In this document: positions 10,860 to 12,765 of the stretch, piece by piece
How the letters are laid out: the number at the start of each line of letters is the position of its first letter
Position numbering within the stretch: the stretch's first letter is position 1
DNA from: Terriglobia bacterium
GTDB lineage: Bacteria; Acidobacteriota; Terriglobia; Acidiferrales; UBA7541
NCBI GenBank assembly: GCA_020072785.1
Contig: JAIQGG010000002.1
Span: 1,302,001-1,366,000, forward strand
Reading direction: 5' to 3'
DNA: 64,000 nucleotides
Program-made: the position numbers and the translations under genes
The notes under the pieces: model-generated
What the model saw: only the letters and a program-made list of their open reading frames with translations
What the model was told of the DNA's origin: nothing
The model's database searches: none

Positions 10860-11265
10860 GTAGCGCTGTAGCCACCCTCTTCAGTGAGTGGGATTCTCTT
10901 TCTCAATTTCAGTCGTTACCCCCACCCAGGGACCCCGTTCACACCCCAAAAAGTGTTGGAATTGCCAAATCGGGAAGGTGGCAGTTTCGAGTTCTGATCG
11001 GGCGAGGCGCGCATATGCCTGGAGGCGGGCCGGAAAGTTTAGGGATGAATGCTTGCCGGTTTCAGGCCGCCGGCGGCCTGTGACCCGTTGGTGCCTCCAA
11101 ATCCAATGTCATGGCCCGCCGCTGTGATGTAGACTCTCTCTTTGCAACGAGTTCAAAAACTCGGGCTGGTCAGGACAACTCGTGCAGTTGGCACTGAACT
11201 GTTCCTTCTGAGCGGCGGGCATTCCCGGGGACTGCGGGATTTCTTGGTCTGGGAAGCGGTGGATC
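10860..11265. other. 406-base intergenic region with repeat and palindrome
   Basis: No convincing gene. It holds a dispersed repeat at 10867-10900, a C-rich stretch at 10916-10940 resembling sequence near 36.6 kb, a perfect 18-base palindrome CAGGCCGCCGGCGGCCTG at 11063-11080, and a small CGAGTT/AACTCG hairpin near 11148-11163. The promoter for the selenoprotein gene should be in the last ~120 bases, but I cannot pick clear -35/-10 boxes. Confidence 0.6.
10867..10900 (+). repeat. Dispersed repeat family E, copy 1
   Basis: A 34-base element starting TGTAGCC and ending GGGATTCTCTT, with its second copy at 15041-15074. They differ at about five positions. Both lie in intergenic DNA on the same strand. 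Confidence 0.65.
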
Positions 11266-11982
11266 GTGAGCAAACTACTGAAAATATTGGGCGTGGTAGT
11301 TGCGTTGTATGCGCTCCTATCCGGCCTGTTGTTTGCGGCGATGCTGCAATCGCCGGATGATTTTGCCCAGACGATGAAGTATGTGCCATGGCCGGCTTTT
11401 GTAGTTCTTCCTTTCAGCCCACTCTGGAACGTAGCGCGAAACGGCCATGTGCGCGTGGGCGATGTGGCCCCGGATTTTTCCCTCGAGAGTGCTGACCACA
11501 GGAGCCATTTCCAGTTGTCCTCTCTGCGCGGGCAGAAACCCGTCGTGCTCGTCTTTGGCAGCTACACTTGACCACCCTTCCGGCGGGAGGTTCCCGCCTT
11601 AGACAAGCTCTACGAACAGTACAAGGATCAGGTAGCCTTTTACGTCGTGTACATCCGGGAGGCGCACACGAGCGATGTCTGGCAGGACCCGGATAATCTG
11701 GACGACAAGGTTCTCTTCGTGAAGCCGAAGAGCTTCGAAGAGCGCAGTCAGGTCGGTCAAATCTGTGTGGTGAAACTCGGAATTAAGTTTCCCGCTGTGG
11801 TCGACACGTTCGATAACGCCACCGAGCGTGCCTACACAGGCTGGCCCGACAGGCTCTATGTGATTGACCGCGATGGCCGGGTTGCTTTCAAGTCAAAGCC
11901 CGGTCCATTCGGTTTCCATTCCAAAGGCGTCGCGGAAACCTTGCAGAGATTGACGCTCGCTGCCGCACCCGGCCCAGGCTAG
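11266..11982 (+). CDS. Selenocysteine-containing iodothyronine-deiodinase-like protein (in-frame TGA = Sec)
   Basis: One 239-codon frame is interrupted only by TGA at 11569-11571 (codon 102). Conceptual translation gives a membrane anchor (residues ~3-27), an AhpC/TSA-like opening (GDVAPDFSLESADH), then VLVFGSYT-Sec-PPFRREV, YVVYIREAHTSDVW, and later FPAVVDTFDN...DRLYVIDRDG and GPFGFHSKGVAETL. Vertebrate deiodinases show the same order: membrane anchor, FGSxT-Sec-PPF, IYIEEAHxSDGW, VDTM, ERLYVI and a GP(x)GY-like end. The reading frame, codon use and family conservation continue unbroken past the TGA, and a SECIS-like hairpin follows it. Start is GTG 11266. Function is probably redox or reductive; iodothyronine itself is an unlikely substrate. 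The fallback is a pseudogene with one nonsense mutation. Confidence 0.88.
11572..11598 (+). promoter_or_regulatory. Bacterial SECIS-like hairpin after the Sec TGA
   Basis: A 6-bp all-GC stem, GGCGGG (11582-11587) with CCCGCC (11593-11598), closes the loop AGGTT. The loop begins 16 bases after the TGA and holds GGU in RNA, as in the E. coli fdhF element bound by SelB. Published bacterial SECIS descriptions (from memory) need a short stem with a G near the start of the loop roughly 16-37 bases after UGA; this fits at the short end. It lies wholly inside the coding sequence. Confidence 0.75.
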
Positions 11983-12097: not shown

Positions 12098-12574
12098 CTA
12101 TCCCTCTTCCTTGAGTTGCTGGGCCAGGTAGTTCTCCAGGCCCAGCTGCTCGATCAAGCCCAGCTCGGTCTCCAGGTGGTCGATGTGCCCTTCTTCGTCC
12201 TTCAGGATTTCTTTCAGGAAATCCGCGCTGGCGTTGTCGCCGGCCGTGCGGCATATCTCGATGGATTTGTTGTACGCGGAGACTGCGCCCTTCTCCAGCG
12301 CCAGGTCGTTTTCCAGTTGCTGCTTCACGCTCTTGCCGATGCTGATTTTGGCCAATTCATCCATCTTCGGCAGCCCCTCGAGGAACAGGATGCGCTCGAC
12401 GAGTTTTTCGGCGTGCTTCATTTCGCCGATGGCCTGCTGTTTGGTCTGCTTGGAGATCCGCTCGTAGCCCCAGTTCTCGCACATTTCCGCGTGCAGGATG
12501 TACTGGTTGATGGCTCCGAGCTCCTCCTTGAGTCTCGCGGAGAGCTCCGCCAGCACTTCGGGTTTTCCTTTCAT
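12098..12574 (-). CDS. bfr: Bacterioferritin
   Basis: A 158-residue iron-storage protein that forms 24-mers and oxidises Fe(II) at a dinuclear ferroxidase centre. Closely parallel to E. coli Bfr: KEELGAINQYILHAEM (first Glu ligand), GEMKHAEKLVERILFLEGLP (Glu, His and the heme-ligand Met), the LALEKG Glu, and LKDEEGHIDHLETEL (Glu/His). The start is ATG 12574 (MKGKPEV...), preceded by GGGAGG; the 11 extra codons upstream lack support. A Fur-family regulator at 3.9 kb could control it, but no Fur box was verified. It converges on the selenoprotein gene. Confidence 0.96.
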   Translation of the reverse strand: MKGKPEVLAELSARLKEELGAINQYILHAEMCENWGYERISKQTKQQAIGEMKHAEKLVERILFLEGLPKMDELAKISIGKSVKQQLENDLALEKGAVSAYNKSIEICRTAGDNASADFLKEILKDEEGHIDHLETELGLIEQLGLENYLAQQLKEEG

Positions 12575-12765
12575 CTTGAGTTGCCTCCCTTCGCACGGAT
12601 GGCCCAACTCACAAGACTTTCCCGCGGCTTATCGCGAGTGCCTTGATGCGGGCCGCAAGCACAGGATAGCACCACTGCAGTTCGCTCCGCGCCAGCCTCG
12701 CTGCAGCCCTCTGGTAAGGGCGCGCTTTGCTCGCCCCGGACAGGAGTCGGAGCCGCCCCATCTTC

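Follow-up and report, generated by a model that had tools for sequence, protein, structure and literature searches.

Does a TGA within a long reading frame of a soil bacterium (Terriglobia, Acidobacteriota) disable the gene, or does it encode the catalytic residue of a bacterial relative of the vertebrate iodothyronine deiodinases, which activate and inactivate thyroid hormones? The question arises in the window, the whole 64,000-nucleotide stretch of DNA analyzed here, in which a sequence-only reading had proposed a deiodinase-like selenoprotein. We conclude, with a probability of roughly 90%, that the locus is a genuine selenoprotein gene whose product belongs to the iodothyronine deiodinase family (PF00837). 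This figure covers the selenoprotein and family part of the interpretation; far less confidence attaches to the substrate class.

A single UGA interrupts one conserved reading frame

The gene occupies positions 11266–11982 of the forward strand and comprises 238 codons including one for selenocysteine (Sec), with a TAG stop. GTG 11266 is the probable start codon, upstream of which the frame is open as far as a stop at 11209. Frame translation shows that a single TGA (11569–11571, codon 102) interrupts the frame, and translation of the joined frame yields the motifs FGSYT-[TGA]-PPF, YIREAHTSDVW, VDTF and DRLYVIDRDG, so that the frame, its TGA and all four motifs lie where the sequence-only reading had placed them. 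That reading had also anticipated that gene callers would split the gene: standard translation ends at 11569, and GTG 11647 could open a downstream ORF. Standard gene calling would truncate genes of this kind at the Sec codon.

Scanning a single genome from each species yielded at least 570 stretches confirmed as relatives by tblastn, and the best 80 of them are nearly all labelled Acidobacteriota. At each of the 77 related loci with a readable motif the active-site codon is TGA, whereas Cys (TGC or TGT) takes its place in more distant homologues. Both forms are present among the 38 of 396 sampled genomes of the phylum that carry a family member, the Cys forms being confined to more distant branches of this sample. 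Between the window and its closest relative (L055), dN is 0.086 and dS 0.533 before the TGA, and 0.041 and 0.318 after it; low dN compared with dS on both sides indicates that the two halves are constrained as one protein.

The window genome also contains every component of the selenocysteine machinery that the sequence-only reading had suggested looking for, namely selA, selB, selD and selC, the last as two tRNA-Sec genes with anticodon UCA. The selD gene (L012, G000:C1:111200-112165) is of the Sec form and encodes a selenoprotein itself, AAG-U-AAKLSP (AAG-TGA-AAKLSP). The tRNA-Sec(UCA) genes lie 3.6 kb apart, at G000:C2:1112064-1112158 and 1115713-1115807 (L002, L001, L010); they differ at several bases and flank a 968-aa secreted-looking ORF, and every congener has at most one high-scoring tRNA-Sec among the matches listed. 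Across the phylum sample, selA was found in 21 of the 23 genomes with the Sec (TGA) form vs. 251 of 396 overall (Fisher p = 0.003), an association that is significant but mild, selA being widespread in this phylum. A re-check of the TGA-form genomes G341 (97% complete) and G314 (88% complete) found no selA.

A constrained hairpin follows the UGA

Exactly 10 nt past the TGA begins the hairpin GGCGGGA-GGT-TCCCGCC (11582–11598, forward strand), with a 7-bp stem and the loop GGU at 11589–11591. Numbered from the TGA (its T being 0), nucleotides 13–19 pair with 23–29 around this loop. In bacterial SECIS elements the small apical loop contains a conserved G (PMC1088965). We examined synonymous sites in 82 distinct clade sequences, using raw counts that ignore shared ancestry, and found codon choice within the hairpin to be strongly biased: Arg15 is CGG in 81/81 sequences (background 23%), Glu18 is GAG in 79/79 (54%), Val21 is GTT in 74/79 (15%), and Pro24 is CCC or CCT in 82/82 (44%). 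By comparison, codons just outside the hairpin, such as Pro6, Phe9 and Lys36, are near background usage. In three sequences the Glu codon is replaced by GCG, and there the A-U pair 19–23 has become C-G, a compensatory change.

A stem of at least 5 bp closing a GG/GU loop is found in 100 of 108 distinct Sec sequences, vs. 19.1 expected from synonymous-codon shuffles that likewise ignore shared ancestry. The two outer pairs (13–29 and 14–28) form in only some 64% of clade sequences, leaving a conserved core of 5 bp, and other subfamilies combine the same loop with unrelated stems, e.g., AAGATC-GGU-GATCTT (L031) and CCACGTC-GGU-GACGTGG (L156). The GGU-loop hairpin recognized in the sequence-only reading is, on this comparative evidence, a SECIS element.

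Were the TGA a disabling stop, with the downstream half a decaying remnant, the arrest of standard translation at 11569 would be accounted for. Such a pseudogene is hard to reconcile with a TGA kept in 77/77 relatives, with purifying selection past it, with the constraint on the SECIS and with the presence of the Sec machinery; we rejected this reading, whose probability is negligible. The absence of tRNA-Sec and SelB, which the sequence-only reading would have taken as a sign of a pseudogene, did not arise, and the relatives keep the TGA. It is also very improbable that the locus holds two genes, the second starting at GTG 11647, or that readthrough inserts Trp or Cys rather than Sec at the UGA. 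Codons from the TGA up to 11647 (PPFRREVPAL...) belong to the best-conserved part of the gene, and both selA, selB and tRNA-Sec in the genome and Cys at the same position in distant homologues argue against these variants. The two-gene reading was rejected on the same grounds of TGA conservation, SECIS constraint and selection after the TGA. The codon at 11569–11571 is thus almost certainly a Sec codon, at which Sec would be inserted as residue 102.

A predicted deiodinase-type fold and active site in the joined protein

The joined protein matches Pfam T4_deiodinase over residues 61–229 (E = 1.5e-30; 106.7 bits vs. a cut-off of 27), which bears out the family proposed from the sequence; AhpC-TSA (3.8e-13) and Redoxin (8.4e-12) match more weakly. 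Together with the TGA conservation and the synonymous constraint in the hairpin, the T4_deiodinase match excludes chance as the source of the observed features. NCBIfam NF038285 (deiodinase_rel) aligns with 195 bits over model positions 177–340 of 347, but this score is below its cut-off of 250 and the alignment lacks the model's N-terminal half. The top sequence matches in the PDB are mouse Dio3 (7.7e-20) and Dio2 (6.1e-17). The AlphaFold model (pLDDT 95.2, pTM 0.91) consists of a helix at residues 2–26 and a thioredoxin/peroxiredoxin-fold catalytic domain with deiodinase features (11440–11970). Ranking by Foldseek and VIA-align places Dio2 first (Z 21.6) and Dio3 second (21.4), followed by Bcp1 (18.3), the 1-Cys peroxiredoxin AhpE (18.2) and ResA (18.1).

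The helix (11269–11343) is the only hydrophobic one at the N terminus, with a best 19-residue Kyte-Doolittle mean of 2.47, in agreement with the single membrane anchor proposed from the sequence. The catalytic domain is probably on the periplasmic side; in charge-based topology, the N-side of the anchor is more positively charged in only 37 of 70 family rows.

The active site reads FGSxT-Sec-P with a loop-D edge YxxEAHxxDxW, as in the PF00837 family. Alignment of 70 rows to mouse Dio3 and Dio2 shows no variation at the relay positions Ser99, Tyr129, Glu132 and His134 and 96% conservation at Thr101. The loop-D edge E132-A133-H134...W139 (11659–11682; Dio3 E200, H202, W207) has invariant E, A and H, and Trp139, the counterpart of the Trp packed against the relay His in Dio, is present in 93% of rows. 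Arg196 (11851–11853), conserved in 91%, corresponds to the carboxylate-floor residue R260 of Dio3 and R226 of Dio2; with D195 it preserves the pair of Arg and acidic residue that makes up the amino-acid clamp, R226/E225 in Dio2. The roles of the Dio residues are taken from PMC11592359.

The resemblance to vertebrate deiodinases (27–28% identity to Dio2 and Dio3, 9h48 and 4tr3, at Z about 21.5) extends over FGSxT-U-PPF, the N-terminal anchor, the Trx/Prx fold, the EAHPSDGW edge and (E/D)RLYVI, but it is not complete. The motifs and the Sec position hold as described in the sequence-only reading, whereas the second relay His (Dio3 H219, Dio2 H182) is absent, being Pro in the window and in 87% of rows, and so is the proximal Cys at Sec-2, which is Tyr in the window and Y, H or F in 77/77 loci. 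The counterpart of Dio3 Phe258 is also Pro in the alignment to mouse Dio. Human DIO1 needs the proximal Cys for reduction by glutathione, and Dio2 also does without one (PMC9141512). A distal Cys is conserved: Cys167 (11764–11766) lies at Sec+65, a spacing found exactly in 46 of the 47 clade rows, and each of the 77 loci has a Cys somewhere from Sec+59 to Sec+74; in human deiodinases it lies 69–76 positions past Sec (PMC9141512). A further difference is that the Dio2/Dio3 SECIS lies in the 3′ UTR, while the bacterial SECIS is inside the coding sequence.

ResA/TlpA oxidoreductases and AhpE/Bcp peroxiredoxins share the fold (Z 17–18), but the window protein differs from them in its deiodinase loop-D edge. 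It has neither the CxxC/UxxC active site of the ResA/TlpA type, in place of which U-P-P-F is conserved family-wide, nor the peroxiredoxin motif PxxxTxxC, its own sequence being L95-xxx-S99-xx-U102.

Possible chemistry and substrate

The protein is most likely a membrane-anchored Sec-dependent reductase with Dio/peroxiredoxin-like chemistry. SelB and Sec-tRNA would decode the UGA with the aid of the downstream GGU hairpin, giving a product in which a single membrane helix at the N terminus precedes a domain of thioredoxin/peroxiredoxin fold. Sec102 would act as the nucleophile, with protons supplied by the relay of Ser99, Thr101, Tyr129, Glu132 and His134 as proposed for Dio, and would take an electrophile, either a peroxide oxygen or a halogen, from a small molecule in a reductive reaction. 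The resulting selenenyl intermediate may be resolved by a thiol, for which Cys167 is a candidate, and re-reduction would come from an external thiol system. With Pro in place of the second relay His and Tyr in place of the proximal Cys, the chemistry need not be deiodination, and thyronine deiodination is not expected, nor are iodothyronines in soil bacteria.

Whether the substrate would be a peroxide or a halide divides two versions of this Sec-dependent reductase. We place somewhat ahead, at not quite even odds, a peroxiredoxin-like peroxidase or thiol reductase that would serve cell-surface peroxide defence and perform no dehalogenation. It is consistent with the proximity of the fold to AhpE, Bcp1 and ResA, with the AhpC-TSA and Redoxin matches, with the redox role proposed for the bacterial family (PMC1088965) and with a conserved distal Cys that could resolve a selenenic acid. 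Against it, Dio2 and Dio3 rank above all peroxiredoxins in both sequence and fold, Leu95 and Ser99 precede Sec102 where peroxiredoxins have the Pro of PxxxTxxC, and the EAHxxDxW edge is nearly invariant. The retained proton relay residues of deiodinases and the R196/D195 clamp would suit a reductive dehalogenase that applies the deiodinase mechanism to other substrates, such as halogenated aromatics of soil (iodo- and bromophenols, halotyrosines); we consider this possible but rather unlikely, since both the second relay His and Dio3 Phe258 are replaced by Pro and no neighbouring gene suggests dehalogenation.

Within the window the selenoprotein gene stands alone, between an EamA-like transporter gene upstream (forward strand) and a convergent bacterioferritin-like gene (12098–12607, reverse strand), both named from reading their ORF translations rather than from a family search. 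In the closest relative (L055), the upstream flank of the window is conserved beside the gene and the downstream flank is not. A comparison of neighbourhoods found no conserved operon among 77 loci, so gene context favours neither peroxide nor halide. TonB-receptor-like genes were matched near 13 of the 77 loci, a small secreted protein near 7, and AhpD-like proteins were read by eye upstream of the gene in 3; we dropped all three as guides to the substrate because they are too few and too common in Acidobacteria.

An Acidobacteriota subfamily of bacterial deiodinase-like selenoproteins

Bacterial deiodinase-like selenoproteins were described in 2005 from the Sargasso Sea, as four Sec and six Cys sequences for which the authors argued a redox function distinct from thyroid hormone metabolism (PMC1088965), and the GOS data of 2008 added 22 Sec sequences (PMC2398784). 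The interpretation as a deiodinase-like selenoprotein put forward in the sequence-only reading is supported but therefore less new than it appeared. Like the window protein, the marine proteins belong to T4_deiodinase, use UGA for Sec with a bacterial SECIS and have Cys homologues. They differ in coming from marine metagenomes and in the motif UxxC that reviews give for the bacterial proteins (PMC9312934, PMC13188914), whereas the proteins described here come from Acidobacteriota and have U-P-P-F, one anchor and a distal Cys. The GOS table gives no fixed motif, and U-P-P-F forms may be among its sequences (PMC2398784). Our literature search, which covered a minority of subscription journals, found no paper joining deiodinase, Acidobacteria and selenoprotein. 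What is added is a large Acidobacteriota U-P-P-F subfamily with one N-terminal anchor, a comparatively tested SECIS and Sec in every readable member, which lacks the proximal Cys and the second relay His and conserves the distal Cys. This large set of bacterial Sec homologues includes a member from the named strain Edaphobacter lichenicola X5P2 (L132), which makes the role of bacterial deiodinase-like proteins directly testable by knock-out and assay.

In a tree with mouse Dio2 and Dio3, the vertebrate proteins, which have a long stem (2.09), cluster with other Sec groups of Acidobacteriota, but the branch lacks support (69/48), and the tree thus leaves their junction unplaced. That the subfamily genuinely performs Sec-dependent reductive dehalogenation of halogenated aromatics in soil, and that animal deiodinases descended from such enzymes, is a speculative scenario to which we give a low probability; if true, deiodinase chemistry in bacteria would predate thyroid hormones.

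Of the genomes compared within the genus (the window genome and 18 congeners), 17 carry a family member. The window-type subfamily is seen within the genus only in the window genome and one other (G404, L158), and fourteen congeners carry a second Sec subfamily (L145–L157, L159), a pattern that suggests replacement of one subfamily by another within the genus. The second subfamily bears the signature YVREAHPTDEW and VCYAQPKT and scores higher against T4_deiodinase (128–143 bits in L145–L157); in two of its members (L151, L156) the SECIS loop lies 4 nt further downstream, within a new stem. Elsewhere, between three and six family members were counted in each of the genomes G218, G234 and G314, and several of these members contain a TGA in frame.
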